Below, piece by piece: positions 24,658 to 57,928 of a stretch of DNA of 58,746 bases (position 1 is its first letter; each line of letters opens with the position of its first letter). Under the pieces are notes generated by a model that was not told the origin of the DNA, searched no databases, and worked only from the letters and a program-made list of their open reading frames with translations. Location of the stretch: the NCBI GenBank assembly GCA_030524585.1, contig JAUNGJ010000011.1, forward strand, positions 1 through 58,746, read 5' to 3'. The DNA comes from Eubacteriales bacterium (GTDB taxonomy: Bacteria; Bacillota; Clostridia; Lachnospirales; Lachnospiraceae). The position numbers and the translations under genes were made by a program.

Positions 24658-24713
24658 TTACATATATTAATCTATACAGTGCGGCTATATAACAGCAGAA
24701 AAGGGGTGACATC

Positions 24714-27103: not shown

Positions 27104-27136
27104 TGTGATAACTGTAAGAAAGGAGCCGAATACGCG

Positions 27137-27409: not shown

Positions 27410-27449
27410 GCTTTGGCTATAGAATGATAAGAAGTACCGGGATTAAACG

Positions 27450-27484
27450 AACTGCCGCACTAAGGAATTAGGGCGGCAGTTTTT
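27450..27484 (+). terminator. Rho-independent terminator after spoVG
   Basis: AACTGCCGC (27450-27458) pairs with GCGGCAGTT (27473-27481), followed by a T-run. Confidence 0.9.
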
Positions 27485-27542
27485 CTGCTCTTCTGATCCA
27501 TTCGCCAGGCTCCCACAGGAGCTGTATTGACGTCGTATAATA

Positions 27543-30450: not shown

Positions 30451-30452
30451 GC

Positions 30453-36721: not shown

Positions 36722-36739
36722 AGTTTCTCTCTCCTTGTC

Positions 36740-37444: not shown

Positions 37445-37458
37445 GGTATTCCTCCTGA

Positions 37459-38361: not shown

Positions 38362-38453
38362 AATTTGTCTCCTTTTCCTGTGAATTTTTGTTAGCCTACG
38401 CTTTATATAAACCGTTCTGTTTTAAAAAACGCAACGATTTCTCACCAGACCGA

Positions 38454-39428: not shown

Positions 39429-39432
39429 ATGC

Positions 39433-40398: not shown

Positions 40399-40415
40399 AT
40401 CGTAACCTCCGCTTC

Positions 40416-41444: not shown

Positions 41445-41480
41445 TTTGTTCCCCTCCATACCGTTTTTATTTACAATTCT

Positions 41481-42512: not shown

Positions 42513-42538
42513 GTCGTTTCCTCCTTGCACTGCTTATC

Positions 42539-43621: not shown

Positions 43622-44566
43622 CTATCCACAAATTCCCCTTCCAAAATACTTCTGGTAAATCTTATCCGTGCTCTCCTGTATCTCCGCTACCATCTTCTGA
43701 TAATTGTTCACAAGATTTCTTCCTTCCTCCGTCAATACCGAACCTCCGCCGCCGGTTCCTCCCGCCCATCTTCGAACCGCCGGAAATCCAAGCTGCCTGT
43801 CAATTGCCTTGATCATTCGGCTCCCTTTGCTGTAAGATAAATCCATCCTTGCACAGGCTTCCTGTATGGAGCCGGTCTGGTCAATCAGTTCCAGCAGTTC
43901 ACAGACACCCGGTCCAAAGAACTGTTCGCCAGCCATCAGCTTCACCTGAACCAGCGGCTGCATCGGACAGCATTCTCCCCGGTTATAATTCCACCGGATC
44001 AATTCCCTGTATTCCTCCGGCGTATCCACATCCATATAGATTGCCTCATCTTCTACTTCCAGATCTGTAATGGGAACACCGGACTCCTCCATCGCCCCGC
44101 GAAGTCCCCGGCGTCCGTCATCTGCACAGATAAGAGGAATCATCTCTGTCCGAATAAGGATTGGATGCCCCGGCTCTCCCTTGCAGACAGTACGCACCAG
44201 ATCCGCATTGATCATCAGCGTCTGCCGGATAGTCTCCGGTCGGATTGCCGGCGTGTCTATCGGCATCAGCATTACCCGCTCACAATCTTTTTCAATCGCC
44301 TGCAAACCAATTTTTATGGAGTCAAACATTTCTGTTTCTCTATAACGTTCGTTTCTCACAAACCGAACGCCCGCATAAGCAAGATGTGCCTCCAGGCGCT
44401 CGGCACGATATCCTGTTACTACTATAATCGGATCAAGCCCCATATCTTTAAGCACGGTCACGATATGATTTGCTATGGTAGAATTTCCAAAAGGAAGCAT
44501 CGGCTTAAAATCCTGCATTCTGGAGGACATCCCTGCCGCCACCAGCACCGCTCCTGTTTTTTTCAC
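43622..44566 (-). CDS. MobA/MocA-like NTP transferase fused to ModE-type helix-turn-helix
   Basis: 314 residues. Residues 1-195 are a cofactor nucleotidyltransferase: VLVAAGMSSRMQDFKPMLPFG, VRNERYRETEMFDSIK and MLMPIDTPAIRP, like MocA, which makes molybdopterin cytosine dinucleotide, the form used by many bacterial Mo hydroxylases. Residues 210-300 are a LysR/ModE-like winged helix: GPGVCELLELIDQTGSIQEACARMDLSYSKGSRMIKAIDRQLG and GGGGSVLTEEG. So one polypeptide may both build the cofactor and regulate the operon. First gene of the cofactor operon, with a 23-bp palindrome just upstream. Confidence 0.88.
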   Translation of the reverse strand: MKKTGAVLVAAGMSSRMQDFKPMLPFGNSTIANHIVTVLKDMGLDPIIVVTGYRAERLEAHLAYAGVRFVRNERYRETEMFDSIKIGLQAIEKDCERVMLMPIDTPAIRPETIRQTLMINADLVRTVCKGEPGHPILIRTEMIPLICADDGRRGLRGAMEESGVPITDLEVEDEAIYMDVDTPEEYRELIRWNYNRGECCPMQPLVQVKLMAGEQFFGPGVCELLELIDQTGSIQEACARMDLSYSKGSRMIKAIDRQLGFPAVRRWAGGTGGGGSVLTEEGRNLVNNYQKMVAEIQESTDKIYQKYFGRGICG

Positions 44567-44706: not shown

Positions 44707-45951
44707 TTAAAATAACTGTGTACCTTTCTCAATCTTCTCCATCAAAATAATTCCTCTGGCTCCGATCTTTTCATCCCACATCTCTTTTTCCGGCCAGAGC
44801 TCTGCCACATTGATTACACCCCGCTTTGTATACTCACCTCGGCACAGCATCAATATCATCTCAATGACAATACTTCCAATCGTACCGTATACATTATGTC
44901 CTGCCCACGGAAGGTGTTTCATTGCTTCGCTCATGGTTGCCGCATGAAATGCAGTGTGACGCACAGTGACTCCCTTTTGCTTTCCGGTAACTTCCACAGA
45001 GATTGCCAGCATACCGTCCTTTAATACACCCTGATCTATAAACTCCCGAAAATTCGTATTATATGCCAGAGACTGCCCGAAGGTGTCAAACATATCTTCG
45101 GTTTTTGCACATTTGGCGGTCTGCTCGCTGATTGCCTTCAGCCACATATCCTTCATTTCCATACCGCCCATACAGATTCCCATCTTGCCTTCAATATAAG
45201 GCAGCGGTTTTTTGGAAAACTTGCTTACCAGAACAATATCCGGATCATTTGTAAATGTGTATATCTTCTGTTTACCTGCAGGATATGGAAATTCATACTC
45301 TTCTTCACTTTCCAGCAGATCAATCTTCTCCGGTTTGCCATTGATAATTCGTGTAGGATGCGGAGGTCCCAGCCACAGCGCAAAAATATTTCTCGGAGCA
45401 ATCGGCGCCAGCAGTATTTTGCTGTCAATCCAATCAATATTGCGGAATATTACACGGTCTACGGAATCCATTTCTTCAATCATATAGTTTGCGACCATGT
45501 TTGCCCATCCGGGGCTTACTCCCATACAGGGGCAGGCTGTAATTCCTGCCTGTCTAAATTCCTCGTCCATATCAAACTGCGCGTCAATGGTCTCACGGTA
45601 CGGAATCCCCGGTCCTTCCATAACATTAGAACGAAGATCCATATAATGAGCCCCCACCTTCAGGCAGGCTCTCATCAGCGGATAATTGAACGCAGCATAG
45701 ATTCCATTAAAAATCAGGTCCACACCTTCCGCAATTTCCGCAATCTGCTCTATGTTCGAAGCATCTCCCTGCACTGCAAGAATTTCTTCCACAGAACACC
45801 GGTCGCCAAGGCTCTCCACCAAGGTCTTGGCCTTAACTGCTTTGGCCTCTTCAATATCAACCAGAATCAGCTTCTCCACATCCTTTTCCTGGGCCAGCAG
45901 ACCTGCTACTCCAGTACCCTGGTTTCCCGTTCCCACGATACATATTTTCAT
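44707..45951 (-). CDS. Saccharopine-dehydrogenase-like oxidoreductase
   Basis: 414 residues from ATG 45949-45951, AAGGAGG upstream. Rossmann motif VGTGNQGTGVAGLL (6-19), then DIEEAKAV and the saccharopine-reductase-type MRACLKVGAHYMDLRS. Family members oxidise or form secondary amines with NAD(P). The central region ACPCMGVSPGWANMVANYMIEEMDSV and the C-terminal HLPWAGHNVYGTIGSIVIEMI match the overall fold. It is not lysine-pathway saccharopine dehydrogenase by context. The second gene after the sigma-54 promoter at 47464-47480, downstream of nhaC, so it belongs to the Mo-hydroxylase regulon. Substrate unknown. Confidence 0.85.
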   Translation of the reverse strand: MKICIVGTGNQGTGVAGLLAQEKDVEKLILVDIEEAKAVKAKTLVESLGDRCSVEEILAVQGDASNIEQIAEIAEGVDLIFNGIYAAFNYPLMRACLKVGAHYMDLRSNVMEGPGIPYRETIDAQFDMDEEFRQAGITACPCMGVSPGWANMVANYMIEEMDSVDRVIFRNIDWIDSKILLAPIAPRNIFALWLGPPHPTRIINGKPEKIDLLESEEEYEFPYPAGKQKIYTFTNDPDIVLVSKFSKKPLPYIEGKMGICMGGMEMKDMWLKAISEQTAKCAKTEDMFDTFGQSLAYNTNFREFIDQGVLKDGMLAISVEVTGKQKGVTVRHTAFHAATMSEAMKHLPWAGHNVYGTIGSIVIEMILMLCRGEYTKRGVINVAELWPEKEMWDEKIGARGIILMEKIEKGTQLF

Positions 45952-45985
45952 AATTGCCTTCCTCCTTATCTTTTTATTCTCCGCA

Positions 45986-47413
45986 TTATGCTTCTGTTTT
46001 CTCCAGCTTCTCATTGCCGATTCCAAGGAAGCTCAAAACCACTACCAGAATCGGAACAAGCGGGAAGAGAATTGCATATGGGAAGAACTGCCCGATTGTC
46101 ACGCCGTACACATTTCCTGAATAGAATGCACAGAAGGACCATGGCAGGCAAAGGGTTGTAAGAAGACATCCGGACAATGCAATCGTAGCCGCCCGCTTCG
46201 GATTATATCCCGCCTTCTCAAACGGTCTCTTCAGCAAATCATTACTGATAATAACCGGTGGATATGGGTCTGCCGTAACAACGCCAAACAGCAGGATTGC
46301 CAGCATAGAAACAAGATGCAGCTTTCCAGGACTCTTAATATCCTTAAAGATCGTCTTCTGAATCACATCAAATACGCCAATCACATCCAGCAGGCCAACA
46401 CAGGCCAGCGCACAGAACAGAAATATTACGGAATCCGCCATTGAGAACATGCCGCCGCGGTTTACCAGCGATGCAAGCTCCGGTGAGATTTCTTTTCCCG
46501 CCAGAAAGGCATCGGAGGAGAATCCACTGTATGCTCCGGAGATTACCTGTCCAATATCATATCCCTGGAACACAACACCCTGAATCAGAGCCACAAACCC
46601 GGAACCGAACAAAACCAATACCGTCGGAACCTTCATAACCGACAGCACAATTGCAAGTACGATTGGGAGGATCAATATCGGATTCGTATTAAAGTTTGCG
46701 TGCACATCTGCAACAAAAGCCTGTACATTTGCCATCGCATCTGCTGTTCCGGCAGTGTTCATCAATCCCAGCACAAAGAACCAGATCGTTGTGATAACTG
46801 TTGCGATGCCAAGAGGTCTTGCCATATCCTTCATACATTCATATGTAGTCATCTTATTTACCTGAGCCGCACAGTTTACAATATCTGCCACCGGCGAAAT
46901 ATACTGGCCAAACCAGGAACCGCAGATTACTGCTGCCGCCGCCATTCCTGCCGGAATTCCCTGCAGCGTTGCCACGCTGAACATTACCACGCCCAGAGTT
47001 CCCATAGCTGCAAAGCTAGAACCAATTGCAAGCGCCAGAATCGACAGCAGGATAAAGGACAGCACCAGACAATACTTCGGAGATATCAGACTTGCCAGCC
47101 ATCCTACCAAAAGAGGCATCGTTCCCGATATCATACAGCATCCGATCAGAAAACCAATGCCTATAAGAATTAAGAAGCATGGTCCCATAGATGTAATCTT
47201 TGCCACGATTCCTGCCTGCATTTCCTCCCAGGATGCATGGCATCTCCAGGCAATGAGCATATTAACCCCCGTGCATACGACCAGCATCATTTTAAGGTCA
47301 TATCCCAGCACACCGTTCCCCACACCTATGATCACAAGCATACAGATAACTGCAAAATACGCCTCAAACACGGTGGGCTGTCTGTGTTCTTTCTTTTCTC
47401 TTTGTTTTTTCAT
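45986..47413 (-). CDS. NhaC-family Na+/H+ antiporter-like transporter
   Basis: 475 residues, roughly 11-12 membrane helices. SSFAAMGTLGVVMF and WFGQYISPVADIVNCAAQVNKM resemble the conserved polar membrane motif of NhaC proteins; a second polar stretch TADPYPPVIISNDLLKR is near 380. Members exchange Na+ for H+ or an organic anion. First gene after the sigma-54 promoter; AAGGAAGGAG precedes the ATG. With the NSS symporter of the sister operon it may recycle sodium, or exchange substrate and product (inference). Confidence 0.87.
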   Translation of the reverse strand: MKKQREKKEHRQPTVFEAYFAVICMLVIIGVGNGVLGYDLKMMLVVCTGVNMLIAWRCHASWEEMQAGIVAKITSMGPCFLILIGIGFLIGCCMISGTMPLLVGWLASLISPKYCLVLSFILLSILALAIGSSFAAMGTLGVVMFSVATLQGIPAGMAAAAVICGSWFGQYISPVADIVNCAAQVNKMTTYECMKDMARPLGIATVITTIWFFVLGLMNTAGTADAMANVQAFVADVHANFNTNPILILPIVLAIVLSVMKVPTVLVLFGSGFVALIQGVVFQGYDIGQVISGAYSGFSSDAFLAGKEISPELASLVNRGGMFSMADSVIFLFCALACVGLLDVIGVFDVIQKTIFKDIKSPGKLHLVSMLAILLFGVVTADPYPPVIISNDLLKRPFEKAGYNPKRAATIALSGCLLTTLCLPWSFCAFYSGNVYGVTIGQFFPYAILFPLVPILVVVLSFLGIGNEKLEKTEA

Positions 47414-47463
47414 TTCTTACTCCTTCCTTTTCGTTTTTCGTTCTACCTTGTGTATAAATTAAC

Positions 47464-47480
47464 AAGCAAATTCTGTGCCA
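47464..47480 (-). promoter_or_regulatory. Sigma-54 (-24/-12) promoter P1 of nhaC operon
   Basis: Minus-strand TGGCACAGAATTTGCTT fits the consensus TGGCAC-N5-TTGCW exactly. It lies 50 bases before the nhaC ATG. The 22-base segment 47460-47481 recurs identically at 57837-57858. Confidence 0.93.
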
Positions 47481-47572
47481 GCCCGGCCAGCCTTTTATCT
47501 AACATCCATGTGCATCGTTTTCTTCCCCAGTATCTTCATATCCGCGAGCTGCGCATCATTGCGCGAAGCGCA

Positions 47573-47617
47573 TTTTATGTCACAGGGAATCCCGACGGGA
47601 TTTCCTATGACATAAAA
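47573..47617. promoter_or_regulatory. Imperfect 21-bp inverted repeat upstream of P1 (candidate enhancer site)
   Basis: Arms 47573-47593 and 47597-47617 match at 19 of 21 positions around a 3-base centre; the outer parts are TTTTATGTCA and TGACATAAAA. The centre is about 140 bases upstream of the predicted P1 start, the usual distance for an enhancer-binding protein. Its right arm touches the U-run of the rpoN terminator. Confidence 0.55.
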
Positions 47618-47663
47618 AAGAGAGCGACTAATATTAGGCATCTGCCCAAAATCAGTCACTCTC
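47614..47663 (-). terminator. Rho-independent terminator after rpoN
   Basis: On the minus strand GAGAGTGACTGAT pairs with ATTAGTCGCTCTC and is followed by TTTTTT (47614-47619). It ends the long Mo-hydroxylase-rpoN operon. Confidence 0.82.
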
Positions 47664-47678
47664 CTTCTCTGGTTTTTT

Positions 47679-48956
47679 CTAATCTCTTTCCTGTCGTTCC
47701 ATACTGGATGGTATCCCCATTTCCTGGCGGTATTTCGCAACTCCTCTTCTGGATAGCTGTATCTTGTCCTTCTTTAGCTCTTCGCTGATCCGCTGATCAC
47801 TGAGGGGGACTTTCTTGCTTTCTTCTTCTACCAGATTCCGAATCCGCTCCTTAATCTGTATTACCGATTTCGTATCGCCGCCGGTTCCCACTCCGGAAAC
47901 AAACACATCCTTCATAGCCAAAATACCGCCGGAATATTCCATATATTTATTGCGGATCGCTCTGCTGACCGTCGATACATGAATCCCAAGCGCAGATGCT
48001 ATATCTTCCATCTTTAACGGCTTAAGCCCGCCTTTGCCCTCGAAGTAATCCGCCTGAGCATCCAATATCTGTTCCGTAACTTTTAATATGGTTCTTCTTC
48101 TCTGCTCAATACTGTTTATAATGAAACGGGCTTTATCTAATTTCTTTTTAAAGTAGAGCTTCAGCTCTTCGTCCTCTGCCCTCTGATACATCCTGACATA
48201 GTAATCATTGATCTCATAATTACCAACCCATTCATCATTCATGCAGATCTCCCACTTCCCGTCCCGTTTTCTGCAGATAATATCCGGCACAATATATTCG
48301 CTTTTCTGCATACCAACTCCCGCTAAAGGTACCGGTTCCATCTTTTTAATAAATTCCACATACTTTTTCGTCTGTACCGATGATATCCCCAATGCCCGGG
48401 TAATCGTTCCGATTCTTCCCTTTGAGATGTCCTCCAGATGATATGTAATCATATCTTCCAGAATTTCGTCGCAGATTCCAAGCCTGTGCAGCTGTATGAG
48501 AAGGCACTCTTTCAGATCCGATGCAAATATTCCCGCCGGCTCCAGCTCTTTTAGGTGATCCAGGCAGCTCATTACAAGCTTCGTATCTACCTGCAGCAGC
48601 TCTGCAATATCATCAATCGACTCCGTAAAATATCCTTTGCCATCCAGGCATAAAATCAACGCGTTCATCACTCTCTGCTCGGCCTTTGTATAGATTTCCA
48701 TATTCAGCTGTTCCTTAATCAAAACACCAGCTTCCTGTCTATCATACACCGGAATATCTCTTAGATCAGAAAATCTCTCTTCCCCCATCACTGCGCTTTT
48801 GCTTCCTGTATATTCAAGCATAGGATTTTCCAGATATTCACTTTCCAAAAGACTCTGCAGCTCCATATTATTAAGAACCAAAAGCTCTAGGGATTGAAGT
48901 TGTGTTTGATTTAATAAACAATTACATTCAACGGATAACCTTTGCTCAATGCCCAT
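47679..48956 (-). CDS. rpoN: RNA polymerase sigma-54 factor
   Basis: 425 residues. The N-terminal activator-interacting region is Gln/Leu-rich (LLNQTQLQSLELLVLNNMELQSLLESEYLENPML). The core-binding domain is in the middle, then a helix-turn-helix ALGIHVSTVSRAIRNKYM (near 330), and the RpoN box is SRRGVAKYRQ (near 402-411; consensus ARRTVAKYR). Sigma-54 recognises -24/-12 promoters and needs an AAA+ activator, which is encoded two genes upstream. The last gene of the operon that it probably transcribes itself. Confidence 0.95.
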   Translation of the reverse strand: MGIEQRLSVECNCLLNQTQLQSLELLVLNNMELQSLLESEYLENPMLEYTGSKSAVMGEERFSDLRDIPVYDRQEAGVLIKEQLNMEIYTKAEQRVMNALILCLDGKGYFTESIDDIAELLQVDTKLVMSCLDHLKELEPAGIFASDLKECLLIQLHRLGICDEILEDMITYHLEDISKGRIGTITRALGISSVQTKKYVEFIKKMEPVPLAGVGMQKSEYIVPDIICRKRDGKWEICMNDEWVGNYEINDYYVRMYQRAEDEELKLYFKKKLDKARFIINSIEQRRRTILKVTEQILDAQADYFEGKGGLKPLKMEDIASALGIHVSTVSRAIRNKYMEYSGGILAMKDVFVSGVGTGGDTKSVIQIKERIRNLVEEESKKVPLSDQRISEELKKDKIQLSRRGVAKYRQEMGIPSSMERQERD

Positions 48957-48972
48957 ACCTATCTGTCCTTTA

Positions 48973-49944
48973 TCAATCTGTCCTATTTCTGATCAGAGCC
49001 ACCGTGACTGCCATGGCGATTTCATATGGCGTCTCACATTTATATTCCTCCAGCGTAATATCAGTAAGTCGCTGTATCTCCTCCTGAGTATATCCGTGTT
49101 TCCTGAGCCATTCTTTTCCCTGCATTTTCTGCTGCTCATTGTTTACCGTCAGAATACTGCGGACAGGCGTCTCCAATATCTGCCCCATCACAGTTTTGTC
49201 ACACTGGAAGCTCCTGGTTAATATAACCACATGATCTTCCGGTTCAATCAGCAAACATTTTAGCTTGTTATAAGCTCTGATCTGGATATCATACGCCCTC
49301 GGAAATCGCTCCCTGTTCGCATATTCAATGCTGTCATCAATAATCACAGTCCTAAAATTTGCCTTATCCAGCATCTCAACCAGTTCCAACGCAATATTGC
49401 CGCCGCCGATAATATATACCTTCCCGTTATAGTGTATCGGTTCCAGATAATATTTCACGTCTTCTGTAATAATTTCCGCGTGTTCCGGACGCGCCTTACA
49501 GACCGAGGCCGGAATTCTGCACCCGCAGGATACCCCAAAAGCGTCTATGACTGCCATTTCTGCTGTATGCAGATTCACCGCAAGCCACATATTTTCACCT
49601 TCTCTGATCAAATCAAGCGCACGCCAAACCATCTGTCTGTTTTGAGGCTTTCCTGCCTCTATATAGCAGAAGCAGACCCTGGCCTTCTCCTCTTCTCCCC
49701 CAAAAGAGTACGCAAATTCTCCCATTGTGCCGCGGCATTCATCAAACAGGCTCTGTGCCCACAATTCCACACTATGCTCTACATAGGTTTTATAGAAATA
49801 GCCATATATGAGCCCAAGCTCATCAATCAGCATATGCGTTCCATACTGATTTCTGGCTCCTGCGCCATCCTGCATTAAAATTGCCGCCACAGAATCCTTT
49901 CCTTTATTTATCTGCTCACATAAACTTTCAAACAATGTTCTCAT
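48973..49944 (-). CDS. Divergent XdhC-like maturation factor
   Basis: 323 residues. The N-terminal half has VAAILMQDGAGARNQYGTHMLIDELGLIYG, corresponding to the CoxI strand VxxxGSxPRxxGAxMLV but without the Ser-Pro-Arg triad. The second half is a Rossmann fold with VYIIGGGNIALELVEMLDKANF and VVILTRSFQCDKTVMGQIL, as in XdhC C-terminal domains. Order is the standard one, unlike the XdhC in the cofactor operon. Probably the dedicated chaperone for this hydroxylase. The start overlaps the activator stop by four bases; rpoN follows after 16. Confidence 0.78.
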   Translation of the reverse strand: MRTLFESLCEQINKGKDSVAAILMQDGAGARNQYGTHMLIDELGLIYGYFYKTYVEHSVELWAQSLFDECRGTMGEFAYSFGGEEEKARVCFCYIEAGKPQNRQMVWRALDLIREGENMWLAVNLHTAEMAVIDAFGVSCGCRIPASVCKARPEHAEIITEDVKYYLEPIHYNGKVYIIGGGNIALELVEMLDKANFRTVIIDDSIEYANRERFPRAYDIQIRAYNKLKCLLIEPEDHVVILTRSFQCDKTVMGQILETPVRSILTVNNEQQKMQGKEWLRKHGYTQEEIQRLTDITLEEYKCETPYEIAMAVTVALIRNRTD

Positions 49945-51377
49945 CTTTTATCCTCTGAATGTTCAATTCCCAGCTTCTGCATTCGATATTGCAGATTAGA
50001 ACGCGTGTAGCCAATCATTTTTGCCGTCTTTGATATATTCCACTCGGTTTTCTCTAAGGTCTCCAGGATAACTTCCTTTTCTATCTCTGACAAATAGGTC
50101 TTCAAATCCCCCTGTACAAAGGAACCGCCCTTTTTCTTCCCCTTTGCCAAATACGGCTCTCGGATATAAGGATTCAGATGAAATACACTCATCTCTTCCC
50201 CAGGCTCCATCATGACCAGGCCACTCTCAATGGCATGTTCCAGCTCCCTGACGTTCCCCGGCCACTTATGGAAAAGCAGCGCATTCTTCACATCTTCGGT
50301 CATCTCTATCTTGGGTATTCCGTAGATCTTCGCATATTTCCGCATAAAATACTCGGCAATCGTGATAATATCCTCTTTGCGCTCCCGAAGCGGAGGAATA
50401 TCGATACAAATAACAGATACCCGGTAATATAAATCATCCCTCAGCGTATTATTCTGAATACACTCCAGCGGCGGTTTATTACAGGATGCAATGATTCTGC
50501 AGCAGATGGGCGTGTCCACGGTTCCGCCGAGTCTGCGTACCGTCTTTTCCTGAATCGCACGAAGCAGCTTTGTCTGAAGGTAAATCGGCATAGAGTTCAA
50601 TTCATCCAAAAAAAGCGTTCCATTCTTCGCCTGTTCAAACAGTCCCTGGGTATCGCCGGCGCCGGTAAACGCTCCCCGCTTCGTTCCAAACAGCATGCTC
50701 TCTAAAAGTGTATCCGGTATCGCCGCACAGTTTACTGCAATAAAAGGGCTGTCTTTAAACACACTGGCATTATGTATGCTCTGCACAAACAATTCTTTTC
50801 CTGTCCCTGTCTCGCCATACACCAGAACCGGGGAGCTGCTCAGCGCCGCTTTCTTCGCCATCTTAATCGCTTCCCGGATCTGCGGACTGTCCCCTATGAT
50901 ACGGTCAAAGGTGTAGCTTGTTCCATTTTCGCCCTTTCCCTGGGAGACCAATTGTTTTTGTAATTCAATCGTCTTGGTCAGCAATTGACGGATTCCGTCA
51001 TGAAAACGGGTAATTGCAAATGCTCCTATCAATTCCCCATCCCGTTTTATCGGATATGCACTCCCAAGCTGATGTACCTTCTTGCCTCCTTTTGTGATGT
51101 AAGAAAGGTCCTTATTTAATACCGGCTCTCCGGTTTTCAGTACCTGAAGAATTGCTCCGTTTTCATTATCCTTAAAAATATCCGTAAATTGCTTTCCCAG
51201 AACCTGTTCTACCTGCATATCATCATAAATAGAAGAAGGCAGGTTATATAAAATAATCCGCCCATTTCTATCACATGCTAACATCCCCTGGTCTACGGCA
51301 GAATCATAAATCGCCCGCAAAATAAAAACTTCATTTTCCAAGTCTTTGAATTGCTTTTTCTTATTGTCGTCGCCCAT
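49941..51377 (-). CDS. Sigma-54-dependent enhancer-binding activator (PAS-AAA-Fis)
   Basis: 478 residues from ATG 51375-51377. PAS-like sensor at about 20-130 (AVDQGMLACDRNGRIILYNLPSS; GAFAITRFHDG), AAA+ domain with GETGTGKELF (near 185), the sigma-54-contact loop GAFTGA (near 237), Walker B GTLFLDELN, and RERKEDI. The C-terminal Fis helix-turn-helix is NISKTAKMIGYTRSNLQYRMQKLGI. A PAS sensor points to a small ligand, possibly the pathway substrate (inference). The only activator in the window, so it is the likely driver of P1 and P2. Confidence 0.94.
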   Translation of the reverse strand: MGDDNKKKQFKDLENEVFILRAIYDSAVDQGMLACDRNGRIILYNLPSSIYDDMQVEQVLGKQFTDIFKDNENGAILQVLKTGEPVLNKDLSYITKGGKKVHQLGSAYPIKRDGELIGAFAITRFHDGIRQLLTKTIELQKQLVSQGKGENGTSYTFDRIIGDSPQIREAIKMAKKAALSSSPVLVYGETGTGKELFVQSIHNASVFKDSPFIAVNCAAIPDTLLESMLFGTKRGAFTGAGDTQGLFEQAKNGTLFLDELNSMPIYLQTKLLRAIQEKTVRRLGGTVDTPICCRIIASCNKPPLECIQNNTLRDDLYYRVSVICIDIPPLRERKEDIITIAEYFMRKYAKIYGIPKIEMTEDVKNALLFHKWPGNVRELEHAIESGLVMMEPGEEMSVFHLNPYIREPYLAKGKKKGGSFVQGDLKTYLSEIEKEVILETLEKTEWNISKTAKMIGYTRSNLQYRMQKLGIEHSEDKR

Positions 51378-51395
51378 GATGCCCTCCATTGTTAA

Positions 51396-51441
51396 TTTTC
51401 TGACTAGCTGTATTTTTATTCTACTATACTTCGTCAGAAAA
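51396..51441. promoter_or_regulatory. 9-bp inverted repeat upstream of the activator gene
   Basis: TTTTCTGAC (51396-51404) and GTCAGAAAA (51433-51441) are a perfect inverted repeat in the 72-base gap between the NSS gene and the activator. TATAGT and TAGAAT, possible -10 boxes, lie between the arms on the minus strand. Confidence 0.45.
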
Positions 51442-51449
51442 CGACATGA

Positions 51450-52823
51450 CTAATTGATAAAAAATTTCGATATATATCCTGACAGGAATGAAATTCCTAT
51501 CACAATCGGAATAAGATATCTCAATATTTTAAACATTCTCTCCGGGAACCTCAAGCCCTTTCCTTGATTTGCTTCTTTTACAAAATTATCCCAGCCCCAG
51601 CCTTTTTTACTGATACAAAATGCCGCATAAATCAGGCTTCCCAGCGGCAGGATATTATTGGTAACAAGAAAATCCTCGAAATCCATAATGGTGCTTCCTG
51701 CTCCAAAAGGCTGAACACCTTTCCAGACATTATATCCCAGGATACATGGCATAGACAGAATCAGCATACAGACAATATTACCTGCAACCGATTTTCTCGC
51801 TGTGCATCCCGTCAGATCTACTACCATAGAAACAATATTAGCAAACGCCGTTATTACAGTTGAAAATGCTGCAAAAAACACTGCTATTAGGAAGAAACTT
51901 CCTATAACGCGCCCTCCCGGCATAGATGCAAATACACTCGGAAGTGTCACAAATACCAGATCCGGCCCACTGTCCGGCTGAATTCCGCAGGAGAAGCATG
52001 CGGGGAATATAATCATTCCCGCAAGCAGCGCCGCTACCGTATCTAACGCAACAATCCAGAATGCTTCACTGACAAGGCTTCTCTCTTTCCCGATAAAGCT
52101 TCCAAATACGCCAATGGATCCCATTCCGATTCCCAATGTATAAAAGGCCTGAGTCATCGCTGCATTGACCGGCTCCCAGATTCCGTTCGCAAATAATCTC
52201 CCAAAATCCGGCTTCAGATAAAAACTGATTCCCGCTCCGGCTCCATCCAGCGTCATTACATAGAAGGCCACCCCTATCATCAGCGCAAACAGGCTTCCTG
52301 TTATGATCGTACAGAATCGTTCAATCCCATTGCGGATACCGCCGGCACAGATCAGAAAAGCCGCCACAACAATCAATCCGGTTGTAATCATCATTGTAAC
52401 CGGCTGATCCAGCATTTCTGTATACACTGTTCTGATCTGAGCAGTGTTTTTTCCCTGAAATTCACCATTTACCATCTTTACTGCAAATAACAGCACCCAG
52501 CCTGCCACCGTTGTATAAAACATCTGAAACAGATAGTTTCCTGCAAAAGCCGGATATTTGATCAGGTGCCATTTCTGCCCTGGAGCCTCCAGCACATCAA
52601 AGCTTCTCGTTATACTTTTCTGACTCGCCCTTCCTACTGTAAGCTCCATGGTAATCAGCGGAAATCCCAGCACCACCAGAAATACAAGATAGATCAAGAT
52701 AAATGCCGCTCCGCCATATTTTCCTGTAATGTACGGGAATCTCCAGATATTCCCAAGTCCAATCGCACAGCCTACCGCTGTAAATACAAATCCTACCCTC
52801 GTCGAAAATTTTTCTCTCTCCAT
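51450..52823 (-). CDS. Sodium:neurotransmitter symporter (NSS) family amino acid transporter
   Basis: 457 residues with about 11-12 helices. TM1 has FVFTAVGCAIGLGNIWRFPYITGKYGGAAF, the NSS signature holding the sodium and substrate sites, and GFPLITMELTVGRASQKS is in loop 1. LeuT-type bacterial members import amino acids with Na+. Ligand cannot be read from sequence. The start at ATG 52821-52823 has GGAGG six bases upstream. The gene sits between the oxidoreductase and the activator, so it probably imports the pathway substrate. Confidence 0.92.
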   Translation of the reverse strand: MEREKFSTRVGFVFTAVGCAIGLGNIWRFPYITGKYGGAAFILIYLVFLVVLGFPLITMELTVGRASQKSITRSFDVLEAPGQKWHLIKYPAFAGNYLFQMFYTTVAGWVLLFAVKMVNGEFQGKNTAQIRTVYTEMLDQPVTMMITTGLIVVAAFLICAGGIRNGIERFCTIITGSLFALMIGVAFYVMTLDGAGAGISFYLKPDFGRLFANGIWEPVNAAMTQAFYTLGIGMGSIGVFGSFIGKERSLVSEAFWIVALDTVAALLAGMIIFPACFSCGIQPDSGPDLVFVTLPSVFASMPGGRVIGSFFLIAVFFAAFSTVITAFANIVSMVVDLTGCTARKSVAGNIVCMLILSMPCILGYNVWKGVQPFGAGSTIMDFEDFLVTNNILPLGSLIYAAFCISKKGWGWDNFVKEANQGKGLRFPERMFKILRYLIPIVIGISFLSGYISKFFIN

Positions 52824-52853
52824 CTTTATCCTCCGGTAACTGATCATTTCAGC

Positions 52854-53843
52854 TTAGTTTCTGCTGTTATCCCCAAAATAAATTCCGCATGCCGGTGATT
52901 TTAAAGTGTTATGGTATCCGGCCGGTGCATCTGCAATAAATGGAATCGCATTTACAATCGAACCAATCGTGGATGCCATACCTCTGTCCGGCGTATAATT
53001 GCACATACAGTCAATCATCGGTGTTCCTTCAACCTTTAGATGATCATAGTATTTTCTTTCCGGATCCTCCACCATAACATAGTTCATTTCCAGCTTCTGT
53101 TCCCCATCCTGAAAACCGCGGACAGTAGCTTTTAATCCATATACCCTGCCGCTTTCGTTTACCATAGGTGCTTTATCTAAAGTAACATCATCAATCTTCC
53201 ATCCAAATGCATCTGCCACATACGGAATGGAAGCCTTCAGCTCTTCTTTTGACTTAACGGTGCCTGCTTCGATTCCCTTATAGTAATCCTCTTCCTGAAG
53301 CGTAATTCCCCATTCCGCCGCATTACTTTCATCAGAAAAAGCCTGTACGTCTGCATAATGGGTAAAGGCAATATTCTTTACATCTGTGCTTCCTTCCGTC
53401 ATGGAAATAATAAAGCGTTCTTCGGTCTGGGTTGCGCCCCGGCCAATATAGCTGACTCCGTTCTCCTTACACAGCCGGTCAATCTCTTCTGCTATCTCTT
53501 TATCCGTAAATTCTAAATTGCAGGTCTCCGCACTGGCAACAATCGCATTCATACCGCTCTTAAGAGCCGGGATCAACTGCTGGTAGGTCTCCTGTATTCC
53601 CACCGGCGACGCTGTATTGATAATTACATCGGCTTTTTTCTCAGCACAGAATGCTTCAAGATCATTCGTAACAGCAACGCCAATTGCTGATCCCCCTGTC
53701 AGTTCTCCCACATCTTTGCCTATTTTTTCCGGATCAATATCAATGGCTCCTACCACTTCAATTCCTTTGCGGTTCTGCAATGTCTGCACAATACCAGAGC
53801 CGACACTTCCGACACCCAAAATCACAACCTTAATACTACTCAT
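52854..53843 (-). CDS. DapB/2,4-diaminopentanoate-dehydrogenase-like NAD(P) oxidoreductase
   Basis: 329 residues (330 if the preceding adjacent ATG is used). Rossmann motif VVILGVGSVGSGIVQTL at the N-terminus; VIINTASPVGIQETYQQLIPALKSGMNAIVASAETCNLE follows the pattern of dihydrodipicolinate reductase-like proteins; the C-terminal part has LKATVRGFQDGEQKLEMNYVMVEDP and AIPFIADAPAGYHNT. The closest function I can name is the ornithine-fermentation 2,4-diaminopentanoate dehydrogenase, an amine dehydrogenase. No partner ornithine genes are here, so the substrate differs or is unknown. 15 bases after the Mo subunit gene. Confidence 0.82.
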   Translation of the reverse strand: MSSIKVVILGVGSVGSGIVQTLQNRKGIEVVGAIDIDPEKIGKDVGELTGGSAIGVAVTNDLEAFCAEKKADVIINTASPVGIQETYQQLIPALKSGMNAIVASAETCNLEFTDKEIAEEIDRLCKENGVSYIGRGATQTEERFIISMTEGSTDVKNIAFTHYADVQAFSDESNAAEWGITLQEEDYYKGIEAGTVKSKEELKASIPYVADAFGWKIDDVTLDKAPMVNESGRVYGLKATVRGFQDGEQKLEMNYVMVEDPERKYYDHLKVEGTPMIDCMCNYTPDRGMASTIGSIVNAIPFIADAPAGYHNTLKSPACGIYFGDNSRN

Positions 53844-53858
53844 CATTTTCCCTCCTTT

Positions 53859-56180
53859 TTATTTTGCTGAATGGAGCGCTCTCCATACGCGTTCTTTTGT
53901 CATTGGCAGATCATTTACCTTTACGTCCATCGCATTGTTAATTGCATTGGCGATTGCAGGCATAATCGGCACCATCGCCACCTCGCCAATACCTTTGGCC
54001 CCATAAGGTCCTCTCTTATGAGGTTCTCCTACAAATCCGGATTCAATTCCTTCATTAAATGGAATGTCCAGCATGGTTGGGATCTTGTAATCCCTGTAAT
54101 TGCCGTTAATAATCTTACCATTACTGTTAAACAGGGTTTCCTCAAAGACAGCCTGGCCGATTCCCATCGCCACAGCGCCGTCTATCTGCCCCTGAATCGT
54201 TTTTTCATTCAAAATCTGTCCTGCATCATACCAGCCGCCGGACTTAAGGATACGAACCTCTCCCGTATCACGGTTCAGGGCAAGTTCAATACCAATCGCG
54301 CCATAAGAATAATATGCCACCGGCTCACCCTGTCCGGTCTCTGCATCAATCGTACCCTCGTCATAAGTAAATGCAGAAGTAGCAATCAGCTCACCCTTCT
54401 CCGGAATCCATCCTCCGTTATTGAACATTTTCTTATAGGTGCATCGATTCTCCGGATTGTTGATTTCAAAAATCTCACCATTGCTGGTATCCAGCTGCTC
54501 TGCCGGTACTCCCAGAACTTCCGCTCCTCTCTCAAGTACCATTTGTTTCAACTTCCGGCAGGTTTTCAGCACGGCATTTCCATTCATGAAGGTTCCGCGG
54601 CTGCAGAAGGTTCCATGGTCAAATGGACAGAATGCGGAATCATCAAATACAATCTTAACTTTATCCGGCGTAATTCCAAACTGCTCTGCTGCAATCTGAG
54701 CCAATACCGTATTGCATCCCTGTCCCATCTCAATCTGGTAATGTCTGATCTCAATCGTGCCATCATCATGAGCCTTAGCAATAATAGAGGAAGTAGATCC
54801 GCTCATGGTGTACTTGTTGCCGCAGGCAAGCCCCTTGGCAATGATCCATGGTCCATCCTCTCTTCTCATATCTTTGCCCCACTGAATATATTCTGCGGCC
54901 TTGTCGAGCGCTTCCATGGTAGCATTGTTGTAAGTCACCTGATTATTGGCATCAATATCGCCATCTACAAGGAGATTCATTTTACGGATTTCTAACTGAT
55001 CAATTCCAAGCTGCTCTGCCGCTCTGTCCATATGACACTCAATGGCAAAGTCCAGAAGCTCTGCTCCCAGCGCCCGGTACGGTCCCGTTGCCGGCGTATT
55101 AGTATGTACACCGTATGCGTCCAGCTTCATATGCGGTACCCGATAGGTTCCTGTTGCTCCAAACGCCCCATCATTACAGAGCACCGTAACATGCCCGCTG
55201 TACGCACCTCCATTGATGTATTCTGTAATCTGTCTGGCAACCAGCGTTCCGTCTTTTTTGTATCCGTCTTTGATCTGAACGATCGCAGGACTTCTCGGAT
55301 TTCCATGAATAAATACTTCTTCCCGGGACATCTCAAGTCGTACCGGACGTCCGGACTTGGCTGCAAGCATTACCGCAATCGGGGTAACCATCAGGTCAAC
55401 CTTTCCCCCGAAGCCGCCGCCTACATAAGGCGTGATAAACCGTACCTTCGATGACTCAAGTCCAAATGTATCACAGATAAAATATTTCAGGCGTACGCCT
55501 CCCTGTTCACTTGCCCAGATGGTAATTCCACCGTTTACATCCGGCTCTACCACACAGGCATGTGGCTCCATGGGACAATGCTGTGCTCTTGGCATCGTAT
55601 AAGTATCCTCATAAATAAAATCTGCCTCTGCAAATCCTTCCTCAATATTGCCATGACGAATTTTCCTATGTATAAATACATTTTTGTGATCCGGCTCCAG
55701 GCGATACGTAAGAAGCGGTACCGGCTTTGTTCTGTAATTTGGCAGATCCTCGTGAATAACCACCGGGCAGTCGGATTGAAAGCTTTCAATCGGATCCAGT
55801 ACCGCCGGCAGCTCTTCATACTCCACCTTAATCAGATCCAGCGCATCTTCCGCAATCTCCGGTGTTACTGCTGCTACCGCTGCCACCGGGTCTCCCACAT
55901 ATCGCACCTTTTTTTTGCAGATCACATGACGATCCTCGATATAACCGGTTCTGATATCCGGAGCATCCGCCCCTGTTACAACCGCAACCACTCCTTCCAG
56001 CTTCTCCGCCTCAGACGTGTCAATGCTTTTGATGATTCCATGGGCAATCGGGCTTCCAAGTAATCTTCCGTATGTAAGTCCCTTCGGCTGCATGTCCGCT
56101 GCATAAAGCGCTCTTCCTGTCACCTTATCCATGGCATCTTTTCGAATAAAGCCTTTTCCAATAACTGAATATTCCGCCAT
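53859..56180 (-). CDS. Molybdenum hydroxylase (xanthine dehydrogenase family), Mo-binding subunit
   Basis: 773 residues from ATG 56178-56180, GGAGG seven bases upstream. Contains the aldehyde oxidase/xanthine dehydrogenase a/b hammerhead at about 18-125 and the Mo-cofactor domain behind. Landmarks: HCPMEPHACVV, PYVGGGFGGKVDLM (pterin loop), NTPATGPYRALGAE (substrate arginine loop), IEMGQGCNTVLAQIAAEQFG, and the catalytic glutamate in GPYGAKGIGE near 735. All key residues are present, so it is probably active. The substrate loop differs from classical XDH (RALGAE instead of RGFG), so xanthine is not assured. Confidence 0.93.
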   Translation of the reverse strand: MAEYSVIGKGFIRKDAMDKVTGRALYAADMQPKGLTYGRLLGSPIAHGIIKSIDTSEAEKLEGVVAVVTGADAPDIRTGYIEDRHVICKKKVRYVGDPVAAVAAVTPEIAEDALDLIKVEYEELPAVLDPIESFQSDCPVVIHEDLPNYRTKPVPLLTYRLEPDHKNVFIHRKIRHGNIEEGFAEADFIYEDTYTMPRAQHCPMEPHACVVEPDVNGGITIWASEQGGVRLKYFICDTFGLESSKVRFITPYVGGGFGGKVDLMVTPIAVMLAAKSGRPVRLEMSREEVFIHGNPRSPAIVQIKDGYKKDGTLVARQITEYINGGAYSGHVTVLCNDGAFGATGTYRVPHMKLDAYGVHTNTPATGPYRALGAELLDFAIECHMDRAAEQLGIDQLEIRKMNLLVDGDIDANNQVTYNNATMEALDKAAEYIQWGKDMRREDGPWIIAKGLACGNKYTMSGSTSSIIAKAHDDGTIEIRHYQIEMGQGCNTVLAQIAAEQFGITPDKVKIVFDDSAFCPFDHGTFCSRGTFMNGNAVLKTCRKLKQMVLERGAEVLGVPAEQLDTSNGEIFEINNPENRCTYKKMFNNGGWIPEKGELIATSAFTYDEGTIDAETGQGEPVAYYSYGAIGIELALNRDTGEVRILKSGGWYDAGQILNEKTIQGQIDGAVAMGIGQAVFEETLFNSNGKIINGNYRDYKIPTMLDIPFNEGIESGFVGEPHKRGPYGAKGIGEVAMVPIMPAIANAINNAMDVKVNDLPMTKERVWRALHSAK

Positions 56181-56191
56181 TTTCATCCCTC

Positions 56192-56671
56192 CTATTTCCC
56201 TGATTCTTTCAGCAGTTCCTGTGCTCTGTATACAGCATTGATAATATTGGTATATCCTGTACAGCGGCAGATATTTCCTCTCAGATAGTCCCGAATCTCC
56301 GCTTCCGTCGGATTTGGATTCTCATCAAGAAGCGCTACCACTGACAGTACCATTCCCGGTGTACAGAAACCGCATTGAATTGCAAATTCATCAACAAATG
56401 CCTGCTGATACGGACTCAGTACGCCACCTTTGGACAAACCCTCAACTGTTATAATTTCTTTGCCCTGAACCTGTGCCGCAAGAGTGCTGCAGGAAGCTAC
56501 ACCTTTTCCATTTACCAGCACAGTGCATGCTCCGCAGTCTCCCTCATCACAGCCTCTCTTTACGCTGGTAATGCCAAGACCATCTCTTAGAAAATTCAGA
56601 AGTGTTGTATTTGGCAGTACAGCAGCTTCTACCCACTCACCATTGATTTTAAATCTCATTAGCTGTTTCAT
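56192..56671 (-). CDS. Molybdenum hydroxylase, 2Fe-2S subunit
   Basis: 159 residues. N-terminal plant-ferredoxin-type cluster RGCDEGDCGACTVLVNG plus a fourth cysteine in ASCSTL; C-terminal helical-bundle cluster QCGFCTPGM and ICRCTGYTNI. All eight cysteine ligands are present. Moves electrons from Mo to FAD. Five to eleven bases separate it from the Mo subunit gene. Confidence 0.96.
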   Translation of the reverse strand: MKQLMRFKINGEWVEAAVLPNTTLLNFLRDGLGITSVKRGCDEGDCGACTVLVNGKGVASCSTLAAQVQGKEIITVEGLSKGGVLSPYQQAFVDEFAIQCGFCTPGMVLSVVALLDENPNPTEAEIRDYLRGNICRCTGYTNIINAVYRAQELLKESGK

Positions 56672-56695
56672 TTTTCACCCTCCATTATATCCATA

Positions 56696-57571
56696 CTACA
56701 GACCGGCAATTTCACAAAGTCCATTGCGCGTCAGTACTCTTACCATTTCACGCCGGTATTCACTGGTTGCGCGCATATCAGTAATCGGTGCACAGTCATT
56801 CATACATGCACACTCTGCTGCTTCCTCAATCAATTCCTTCGTCAATTGTTTTCCAATCAACAATTTTTCTGCTTCATACGCACGTTTTGGTGTAATCGCA
56901 ACAGCGCCAAGTCCAATTTTGACCTCTTTACACACGCCAGCTTCTACGATTCCACCAACTGCTACGCCAACCATGGCCAGATCCAGCGCTCTTCTGGCCG
57001 TATGGCTGTAATATACGGATTTATACCCCTGTGCCGGCGCCGGAATCTGAAGTTCTGTCACTACTTCATTCCGTTTCAGCACCGTTCTGCACACTCCTGT
57101 AAAAAATTCTTCAATCGGTATAAGTCGTTCGCCTTCACTGCTTAAGATTCTAACTTTAGCTCCAAGCACCAGCAGAGACGGTGCGGAATCTGCTGAAGGC
57201 ACTGCATTACAGATGTTGCCGACAATTGTTGCCACATTACGGATCTGTGTTGATGCAATACTCGAAGATCCCTGATAAAGTGCGGGATAGTTATCCCTTA
57301 CAATTTCTGATGCCTCGAGCTGCTTCAAGGTAAGCGCTGAGCCAATGCGAAGTCCGTCTTCTTCATCATACTTCAGATAAGACAGCTCCTTGATTCCACT
57401 GATATCCACAACATGGTCCGGCGCCAGCACCCTTCCTTTTAATTTAGGAACCACATCGGTTCCACCTGCAATAATCACCGCTTTCTCCTGATACTCATCA
57501 AGAAGTCCCAGCAATTCTTTTATGGAAAGAGGCGCATGGTACTCAAATGGTTTCATGGTTTTTACTGACAT
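56696..57571 (-). CDS. Molybdenum hydroxylase, FAD-binding subunit
   Basis: 291 residues from ATG 57569-57571, with AAAGGAGG seven bases upstream. FAD-binding PCMH fold: FEYHAPLSIKELLGLLDEYQEKAVIIAGGTDVVPKLKGR, then STQIRNVATIVGNICNAVPSADSAPSLLVLGA, the classic XDH FAD subunit pattern. The C-terminal CO-dehydrogenase-flavoprotein domain is present. It passes electrons to NAD or another acceptor. An in-frame extension to 57637 is not supported. Second gene after sigma-54 promoter P2. Confidence 0.95.
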   Translation of the reverse strand: MSVKTMKPFEYHAPLSIKELLGLLDEYQEKAVIIAGGTDVVPKLKGRVLAPDHVVDISGIKELSYLKYDEEDGLRIGSALTLKQLEASEIVRDNYPALYQGSSSIASTQIRNVATIVGNICNAVPSADSAPSLLVLGAKVRILSSEGERLIPIEEFFTGVCRTVLKRNEVVTELQIPAPAQGYKSVYYSHTARRALDLAMVGVAVGGIVEAGVCKEVKIGLGAVAITPKRAYEAEKLLIGKQLTKELIEEAAECACMNDCAPITDMRATSEYRREMVRVLTRNGLCEIAGL

Positions 57572-57636
57572 TTTTGATCCTCCTTTGATATGTTTTTTGT
57601 GCTCATTTTTGGGCACTGCCCATTTTTCTTCCAACA

Positions 57637-57798
57637 TTATTGGATTCTTCTGGCAGTCTCCTCATCTTCTCTGCATTTTGCGCCAGGATATGGACATATC
57701 CTGCACGAATGCCCGCAGGCGTACTGCTTGGTCGTATAGTCCCTTATTTCCTGTTCATCTTTCACTCCGGTCCCGGAAAAGCGTTTGTTGCTATCCAC
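57637..57798 (-). CDS. Small cysteine-rich protein, unrecognised, first gene of the P2 operon
   Basis: 53 codons from GTG 57796-57798 with AAAGGAG seven bases upstream. Hydrophilic protein; four cysteines lie in CGHSCRICPYPGAKC (residues 28-42), spaced C-X3-C-X2-C-X6-C, followed by an acidic tail REDEETARR. This could hold a zinc or an Fe-S cluster. I do not recognise the family. The ORF lies within about 260 bases of leader between P2 and the FAD subunit gene, and its TAA overlaps an ATG (TAATG). Without it the leader would have no explanation. Expression is not proven. Confidence 0.6.
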   Translation of the reverse strand: MDSNKRFSGTGVKDEQEIRDYTTKQYACGHSCRICPYPGAKCREDEETARRIQ

Positions 57799-57840
57799 AT
57801 TTCTTCTCCTTTCTAAACTAATCTTTGATACTTATATAAC

Positions 57841-57857
57841 AAGCAAATTCTGTGCCA
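57841..57857 (-). promoter_or_regulatory. Sigma-54 (-24/-12) promoter P2 of the Mo-hydroxylase operon
   Basis: Minus-strand TGGCACAGAATTTGCTT, identical to P1, inside a 22-base identity (57837-57858). The start point would be near 57829, about 30 bases before the small Cys-rich ORF. Confidence 0.93.
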
Positions 57858-57928
57858 GGCGCGGAAAATGTGGAGACAGCTTTCATCCCGTTCTAATCCG
57901 TCATATCAAATCTACAAATCCGAAATGC

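Follow-up and report, generated by a model that had tools for sequence, protein, structure and literature searches.

A candidate self-contained sigma-54 catabolic island around an atypical molybdenum hydroxylase in a Lachnospiraceae genome

In Clostridiales, regulons controlled by sigma-54 often serve amino acid catabolism and fermentation. The activators of these regulons form several groups, among them OrdR of the ornithine-oxidation regulon (ord-ortBA-oraSEF-orr-nhaC) and DioR of a purine-degradation regulon, and none of the groups listed in Table 1 of the survey that describes them has the gene set reported here (PMC6615313). The same survey also describes a single sigL in each of 57 sigL-bearing genomes (PMC6615313), which makes a second rpoN devoted to one gene island unusual. 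Here, we describe such an island on a contig of 58,746 nucleotides (JAUNGJ010000011.1 of assembly GCA_030524585.1; hereafter the window), which is part of the 2.8-Mb genome of a gut-type Eubacteriales bacterium of the family Lachnospiraceae (115 contigs, 91.8% complete). The island comprises a three-subunit molybdenum (Mo) hydroxylase, two NAD(P) oxidoreductases, two transporters, RpoN and a sigma-54 activator, and at a probability of roughly 0.52 we read it as a dedicated sigma-54 catabolic island, in which an amino acid-like compound is imported and then oxidized at Mo as an aldehyde or cyclic imine. No description of the gene cluster was found in the open-licence PMC literature, the only papers covered by the search.

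The island extends from about 35.2 to 57.9 kb of the window, with all of its genes on the minus strand. Its regulatory and enzymatic core consists of the following features:

57857-57842, minus strand: sigma-54 promoter P1, TGGCACAGAATTTGCT, with 0 mismatches to TGGCACN5TTGCW, upstream of the small Cys/Mo hydroxylase operon
57637..57798, minus strand: 53-aa Cys-rich protein, C-x3-C-x2-C-P-x-P-G-A-K-C, with a GTG start and a Shine-Dalgarno-like sequence
56696..57571, minus strand: FAD subunit of the Mo hydroxylase (PF00941/PF03450), start at about 57571, moved from 57637 by reading
56192..56671, minus strand: [2Fe-2S] subunit of the Mo hydroxylase (PF01799/PF00111)
53859..56186, minus strand: molybdenum subunit of the Mo hydroxylase (PF02738/PF20256), Glu735 kept, loop RALG
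52854..53846, minus strand: DapB/Ord-fold NAD(P) oxidoreductase without the catalytic Glu of amine dehydrogenases (PF19328, E 3.6e-18)
51450..52847, minus strand: NSS-family Na+ symporter, nearest solved structure MhsT (PF00209, 140.5 bits, cut-off 27; 4us3, E 6e-74)
49941..51389, minus strand: PAS-AAA+-Fis sigma-54 activator with GAFTGA (PF00158, E 2e-59; PAS; HTH_8)
48973..49944, minus strand: divergent XdhC, XdhC_rel_AOR-like (PF13478, Rossmann half only; NF045664, 122 bits, cut-off 350)
47679..48956, minus strand: RpoN (sigma-54; TIGR02395, 352 bits, cut-off 277; PF00309, PF04963, PF04552)
47573..47617, no strand: palindrome of 45 bp with 22-nt arms that are 91% complementary, a candidate activator-binding site
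47480-47465, minus strand: sigma-54 promoter P2, TGGCACAGAATTTGCT, with 0 mismatches to TGGCACN5TTGCW, upstream of NhaC
45986..47413, minus strand: NhaC-family Na+/H+ or solute antiporter (PF03553; TIGR00931, 266.5 bits, cut-off 370)
44707..45951, minus strand: saccharopine dehydrogenase-like NAD(P) oxidoreductase (PF03435 only), start at 45951 corrected by reading

The genes from the Cys-rich protein to RpoN are given in the order of transcription. RpoN is followed by a gap of 265 bp, the genes for NhaC, the saccharopine dehydrogenase-like enzyme, a MocA/ModE fusion, a histidine phosphatase-HD protein and a MoeA-like protein, and then by XdhC1, MoaA, MOSC-MogA, ModA, ModB, MoaC and ModC. Between 39433 and 57637, 12 of 14 intergenic gaps are no longer than 60 bp, and no terminator-like site was found on the minus strand between 47.0 and 58.3 kb. 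All families named in the initial annotation, which covered 44707-57858, were recovered there on the minus strand by profile searches and sequence reading; the gene block is extended here by the two sigma-54 sites, the overlooked gene for the 53-aa protein and a molybdate-uptake and cofactor block, and two gene starts had to be corrected. The initial observation is right and was, if anything, understated.

P1 and P2 are the same 16-mer and lie within identical stretches of 22 nt (CTGGCACAGAATTTGCTTGTTA). The window contains two and the whole genome six perfect TGGCACN5TTGCW sites, and the reversed control pattern gave none. One of the other four genomic sites precedes a PTS-like gene on a contig with a LevR-like activator and, at a distance of about 7 kb, the second rpoN; no convincing gene start follows any of the remaining three, and one of these is located inside a 505-codon frame. 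The RpoN of the island possesses the activator-interacting, core-binding and DNA-binding domains and shares 30% identity with the only other copy in the genome. Eight Sigma54_activat matches were found in the genome, two of them strong (203 and 146 bits); the six at 25-41 bits are taken as other AAA+ proteins, because the same search also matches in control genomes without an rpoN match. Thus, either of the two distant rpoN genes has an activator and promoter(s) of its own on the same contig. The stretch with the second rpoN (20108-31417) encodes a LevR-like activator of 943 aa and, by reading, PTS-like and dihydroxyacetone kinase-like proteins, and contains the perfect sigma-54 site. A distance of about 115 bp separates the centre of the 45-bp palindrome from the -24 box of P2 downstream, which falls within the 100-250 bp given as usual for activator sites in Clostridiales (PMC6615313), and a different inverted repeat is present upstream of P1 (57929-57970). 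With two perfect promoters in identical 22-nt stretches, its own RpoN and its own activator, the self-contained regulon proposed in the initial annotation is well supported at the sequence level, and the claim has become stronger; dependence on this RpoN rather than on the second copy is predicted, and the sequences leave room for cross-talk between the two sigma-54 systems.

A scan of 84,980 species genomes with an alignment of the saccharopine dehydrogenase-like protein returned two relatives. The closer one is encoded in the fragmented assembly of Firmicutes bacterium UBA1047 (loci L039 and L114), is 75% identical to the protein of the window and divergently oriented to the genes for a FAD, an FeS and a Mo subunit, which share 53, 65 and 69% identity with their counterparts in the window. 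The gene order in UBA1047 is FAD-FeS-Mo-small Cys-DapB-DapB; the two DapB-like proteins (58 and 45% identical) are encoded at the contig end, and moaA, moaC, mog, modABC and moeA genes are found on the same contig. The 53-aa protein has a counterpart there (L039, 2427-2588; 34% identity, tblastn E 2e-7), which retains all four Cys residues. Its gene is located beside the Mo hydroxylase genes in both genomes, albeit at different places of the operon, in UBA1047 between the Mo subunit and a DapB-like gene. No NCBIfam match was obtained for the small protein and only a sub-threshold match in Pfam (DUF5522, E 0.09). With no more than one mismatch allowed to the sigma-54 consensus published for Clostridiales, three sites were detected in 18 kb of UBA1047, where 0.21 are expected and none of 200 shuffles contained three; they precede the genes for the FAD subunit, the saccharopine dehydrogenase-like enzyme and a DVU_1556-like methyltransferase. 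As judged from these comparisons, the enzyme core is conserved in UBA1047 and its control by sigma-54 probably is as well, and chance is no explanation for the gene set, because the core recurs. The same stretch of UBA1047 also encodes a flavocytochrome-type reductase (FMN_bind and FAD_binding_2) as well as a regulator whose DNA-binding domain is of the PucR type (10334-13628).

Among 61 genomes, including its own, the DapB-like protein had no other match above 34% identity, and at an E-value of 1e-20 it matched in 35 of 391 genomes of the class (own included), with 26-32% identity in all others. The saccharopine dehydrogenase-like protein was detected in 3 of 397 genomes of the family, including its own, and in 1 of 120 genomes around UBA1047, which is UBA1047 itself. 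Among the matches listed, with at most two candidates scored per genome, the Mo subunit was found at an E-value of 1e-150 in 10 of the 391 class genomes, again counting its own. The next-best ten places found for this subunit are 34-40% identical, and their neighbourhoods (5.6-19 kb, some cut by contig ends) contain no homologue of the DapB-like, saccharopine dehydrogenase-like, NSS, activator or small Cys protein at an E-value of 1e-4.

The Mo hydroxylase has the traits of the xanthine oxidase superfamily, namely three subunits and the catalytic glutamate (E735); the human xanthine dehydrogenase (XDH) chain used for comparison is the E803V mutant, so that the E735 column cannot be judged from it. 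The Mo subunit scores highest with the NCBIfam model of the 4-hydroxybenzoyl-CoA reductase alpha subunit, at 543 bits against a cut-off of 994.55, followed by XdhA (NF043082; 521.4 against 780), and the FAD subunit reaches 243 bits with XdhB, whose cut-off is 310. A selenium-dependent hydroxylase was considered and rejected (TIGR03313, 329.9 bits, cut-off 1101.9). The best structural matches of the Mo subunit are 1rm6, a 4-hydroxybenzoyl-CoA reductase, and then 7dqx, a 6-hydroxypseudooxynicotine dehydrogenase, with nicotinate dehydrogenase among the further matches. The active-site loop reads RALG in the window and UBA1047, whereas ten Mo subunits from other genomes and three further ones of the same genome have RG[FY]G and human XDH has RGFG. 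The phenylalanine of this loop, which we take to be the substrate-stacking F914 of the bovine enzyme, is replaced by leucine (L373) in the window and in UBA1047, while the 13 other subunits have F or Y. In alignments, 1rm6 has RGHG at this place and the pyridine-ring hydroxylase 7dqx has RAPG; since both lack the XDH phenylalanine too, the loop speaks against XDH only. Sub-cut-off scores and the RALG loop suggest that the enzyme is probably not a xanthine dehydrogenase. Another contig of the same genome encodes, within 18 kb, three further Mo subunits (25-32% identical to the enzyme of the window) and two FAD subunits (7255-9618 and 17027-18370), both of which carry a Fer4_20 and Pyr_redox_2 module. 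This 4Fe-4S and pyridine-nucleotide oxidoreductase module follows the first two thirds of the FAD domain; the former subunit continues with CO_deh_flav_C after the insert, and the latter is cut by the contig end.

The DapB-like protein has amine dehydrogenases as its best PDB matches, and these also came first in a structure search with a poor model (mean pLDDT 62); it scores 158.7 bits with the 2,4-diaminopentanoate dehydrogenase model NF040740, whose cut-off is 400. A glutamate at position P3, which we take to be E102 in AmDH4 numbering, is the residue in question. Native amine dehydrogenases and 2,4-diaminopentanoate dehydrogenase depend on the P3 glutamate, and family members that lack it showed no activity on the substrates tested (PMC11164908). 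The P3 column contains Glu in all 24 distinct full-length homologues compared (26 rows, two of which repeat the same place; partial matches L010-L016 and class-search matches without a locus were left out), Ala in the window and Met in the two proteins of UBA1047. The position after P3 is Gln in 3 of the 24 homologues, therefore the first Glu is the essential one. The window protein and one of the UBA1047 proteins keep the adjoining Glu; a shifted role of this residue is possible for these two, not for the third. With P3 replaced in 3 of 3 proteins (A, M, M), identity as Ord or an amine dehydrogenase was rejected, and the DapB-like enzyme is, by sequence, no standard amine dehydrogenase. The initial annotation had described two amine-type oxidoreductases, and this part of it is not supported, the DapB-like protein being devoid of the catalytic glutamate (PMC11164908). 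An activator with 38-44% identity to that of the window is encoded beside 14 of 19 distant DapB/Ord-like homologues, and none of the 19 neighbourhoods gave a Mo subunit or saccharopine dehydrogenase-like match; one of them (L074) matched nothing, not even its own DapB-like gene. This pattern is consistent with derivation of the activator/Ord-like pair from an ornithine-type regulon.

The saccharopine dehydrogenase-like protein is a distant relative of carboxy(nor)spermidine dehydrogenases (8deb, E 8.7e-15), with 47.5 bits against the carboxynorspermidine synthase model NF043000 (cut-off 800) and a poor structure model (mean pLDDT 46). Its second relative from the genome scan (L040, 42% identity) belongs to a Lachnospiraceae cluster (1-8793) with genes for a split transketolase, a class II aldolase, a glyoxalase-like protein, PfkB and MFS proteins, and with no Mo genes in the 9.2 kb covered; members of this enzyme family may thus have a role in sugar-type pathways as well. 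The NSS protein most resembles MhsT, whose substrates are hydrophobic L-amino acids (PMC9350835); nearness to 4us3 is a resemblance only, and among described types an MhsT-like amino acid-type importer is the nearest.

Downstream of the saccharopine dehydrogenase-like gene, a molybdate-uptake and molybdenum cofactor (Moco) block is located on the strand of the island (35188-44566):

43622..44566, minus strand: MocA/MobA-like nucleotidyltransferase fused to a ModE-like DNA-binding domain, DVU_1551-like, below cut-off
42539..43621, minus strand: histidine phosphatase-HD protein, HD half matching DVU_1551, below cut-off
41481..42530, minus strand: MoeA-like protein with a Cys-rich C-terminus, 62% identical to that of UBA1047
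40416..41459, minus strand: XdhC 1 with both XdhC domains, from family profile searches
39433..40455, minus strand: MoaA, by reading, with a tblastn match to the UBA1047 copy
38454..39488, minus strand: MOSC-MogA fusion, from family profile searches
35188..38361, minus strand: ModA, ModB, MoaC and ModC, by reading, matched in UBA1047

Sixteen island proteins, including the small Cys protein, were scanned against families, and MoaA, MoaC and ModABC were recognized by sequence reading and by tblastn matches. The maturation genes resemble the DVU_1551/XdhC_rel_AOR/DVU_1556 set, all below cut-off, and the XdhC_rel_AOR model of that set is named in NCBIfam after aldehyde oxidoreductase. The Cys-rich tail of the MoeA-like protein (LCLNCSVCTFPNCGFGKC) is possibly a metal site.

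From the gene content, promoters, maturation set and enzyme co-conservation, all of which are visible in the sequence, we infer how the island is activated, the class of its substrate and the order of the steps. The PAS-type activator would sense a signal, perhaps the substrate itself, and, together with the RpoN encoded by an adjoining gene, fire the two identical -24/-12 promoters. P1 would serve the genes from that of the small Cys protein through those of the Mo hydroxylase, DapB-like enzyme and importer to the regulatory genes, so that the regulators would promote their own synthesis by positive feedback. P2 would serve NhaC, the saccharopine dehydrogenase-like gene and probably also the genes for Mo uptake and the cofactor. 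Following the chemistry of the respective families, an amino acid-like compound might enter via the MhsT-like Na+ symporter and have a C-N bond oxidized by the saccharopine dehydrogenase-like enzyme; the aldehyde or cyclic imine formed in this way might then be oxidized by the Mo hydroxylase, and a further hydride transfer might fall to the DapB-like enzyme. NhaC could balance Na+ or exchange the product. Taken broadly, the island most likely serves an amino acid-like compound, and an aldehyde, a cyclic imine or an N-heterocycle is what the Mo enzyme would act on. The interpretation given in the initial annotation is thus supported in part: the dedicated regulon, the amino acid-type importer (in the window), a Mo enzyme that does not look like XDH and its linkage to both oxidoreductases in a second genome are in its favour, and the description of both oxidoreductases as amine-type is not supported. 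It is tempting to go further, though this is tentative and clearly less probable than the reading above: the island might represent an undescribed anaerobic pathway for an amino acid-derived compound, for instance an N-substituted amino acid or its cyclic imine, with a new Mo hydroxylase clade, a Glu-less DapB-fold dehydrogenase, a saccharopine dehydrogenase-like C-N oxidase and a 4-Cys microprotein, organized as a portable unit that includes a sigma factor and an activator of its own together with genes for Mo uptake and Moco, in a host whose use of sigma-54 otherwise appears to be limited to one sugar system.

Several observations weigh against the dedicated catabolic island. The core set was found in one other genome only: the co-occurrence anticipated by the initial annotation holds for the Mo hydroxylase and both oxidoreductases in UBA1047, and no close relative of the NSS symporter was found there (a single match, 31% identity). 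The only rpoN match of UBA1047, in two pieces, is on another contig, and none of the 20 activator-matching places in that genome is a clear orthologue (best 40%); thus, the conservation seen for the enzymes is not shown for transport and regulation. The TGGCAC pattern with two mismatches is enriched neither in the window (18 found, 28.8 expected), therefore only perfect sites carry weight there, nor in the UBA1047 locus (9 found, 9.8 expected), and the promoter evidence is drawn from the repeated perfect sites and from the consensus in the literature. The upstream regions of P1 and P2 share no activator-binding motif beyond what shuffles yield, and the half-site TGCCYAATWTTRG, which occurs in UBA1047 as well as close to P2, does not exceed chance expectation in either source. 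The unit from NhaC to ModC may hold promoters of its own, for which the 140-bp gap above 44566 offers a place, or terminators, of which there are four weak candidates on the minus strand between 34.7 and 48.0 kb. The RALG loop does not decide between aldehyde and heteroaromatic substrates.

The main competing explanation, which we regard as unlikely and yet worth serious attention, is catabolism of an N-heterocycle, as in nicotinate fermentation, in which the Mo enzyme hydroxylates the ring next to the nitrogen and the DapB-like enzyme reduces the ring. DapB itself reduces dihydrodipicolinate, and a DapB fold without the glutamate of amine dehydrogenases would suit such a role, as would the structural matches of the Mo subunit to 4-hydroxybenzoyl-CoA reductase, to 6-hydroxypseudooxynicotine dehydrogenase, whose RAPG loop is near RALG, and to nicotinate dehydrogenase. 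The sole importer of the island is MhsT-like, however, the maturation set is akin to one that takes its name from aldehyde oxidoreductase, and a saccharopine dehydrogenase-like enzyme is not known to take part in the established nicotinate route.

It is doubtful that the island consists of two adjacent, functionally separate systems, a Mo hydroxylase operon and a NhaC/saccharopine dehydrogenase unit of another pathway. Separate promoters would be in line with this, and so would the 42% identical homologue in the sugar-type cluster devoid of Mo genes; yet P1 and P2 are identical, and the two units are divergent neighbours in UBA1047, both with sigma-54-like sites. Oxidation of 2,4-diaminopentanoate, as in the ornithine-type pathway, or of another primary amine, with the DapB-like protein as an amine dehydrogenase, is a little less probable still: PF19328, the best PDB matches and the relatedness of the activator to those beside 14 of 19 distant DapB/Ord-like genes point in this direction, but the catalytic Glu that 24 of 24 homologues keep is replaced in 3 of 3 proteins, Glu-less members were inactive on tested substrates (PMC11164908), and no aminomutase or thiolase is among the island proteins scanned. 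Least probable of all is an ordinary xanthine or purine dehydrogenase locus with unrelated neighbours, which the initial annotation had named as the case that would speak against its own proposal: the FAD and Mo subunits do score with the XdhB and XdhA models and purine genes are sigma-54-controlled in some Clostridiales (DioR; PMC6615313, Table 1), but the scores stay below the cut-offs (XdhA 521 vs 780, XdhB 243 vs 310), the loop is RALG, both dehydrogenases are co-conserved with the Mo hydroxylase in UBA1047 and no purine genes are among the island proteins scanned.

Other explanations concern the island as a whole. A compositional island was rejected, since the G+C content is 0.43-0.51 in 2-kb windows over the whole window with no step at the island. 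Riboswitch control was rejected as well, the sole Rfam match at gathering score being a T-box at 18558-18767; this leader lies upstream of a gene that reads like a prolyl-tRNA synthetase gene (17000-18439). A plasmid search returned 31 records, none with a single place covering 80% of the query, and a scan of viral contigs found no relative.

If the substrate of the dedicated catabolic island were found, this would provide a function for a Glu-less relative of amine dehydrogenases, a distinct Mo hydroxylase clade and a conserved microprotein, and native induction via the two identical promoters makes the search for it practical. Compared with described enzymes, the three subunits, the catalytic Glu and the best PDB match 1rm6 are shared with 4-hydroxybenzoyl-CoA reductase and XDH, whereas the proteins of the window fall below the curated cut-offs and have RALG in place of RGHG (1rm6) or RGFG (XDH). 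The DapB-like protein has the fold and the PF01113 and PF19328 domains of native amine dehydrogenases and 2,4-diaminopentanoate dehydrogenase, but lacks the P3 glutamate and, in the alignment, a stretch of the C-terminal domain; if it belongs to any of the amine dehydrogenase groups, it is the Glu-less G5 (PMC11164908). The saccharopine dehydrogenase-like enzyme shares the N-terminal NAD(P) half and a weak full-length match with carboxy(nor)spermidine dehydrogenase (8deb; NF043000), from which its 47.5 bits against 800 and its 42% homologue in an unrelated sugar-type cluster set it apart. The NSS symporter aligns end to end with MhsT of Bacillus halodurans (252 bits). Among regulons, that of DioR is alike in the sigma-54 control of a locus with xdhC-type genes (PMC6615313, Table 1), whereas ygeW, ygfK, ssnA and ygeY are absent among the island proteins scanned and the loop of the Mo subunit is not XDH-like. 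The initial annotation had likewise reported a lack of ygeWXY, ssnA, hydA and ornithine-cleavage genes, which is confirmed for the 16 scanned proteins, the remaining window having been read only and the remaining genome not searched for them. The OrdR/Ord regulon (PMC6615313) shares a PAS-type activator, an Ord-fold protein, a NhaC-family transporter and a -24/-12 promoter with the island, which differs in having no oraSE/ortAB and an Ord-like protein without the catalytic Glu; to this common layout the window adds a Mo hydroxylase, a saccharopine dehydrogenase-like enzyme, an NSS symporter, XdhC, Moco genes and its own RpoN.

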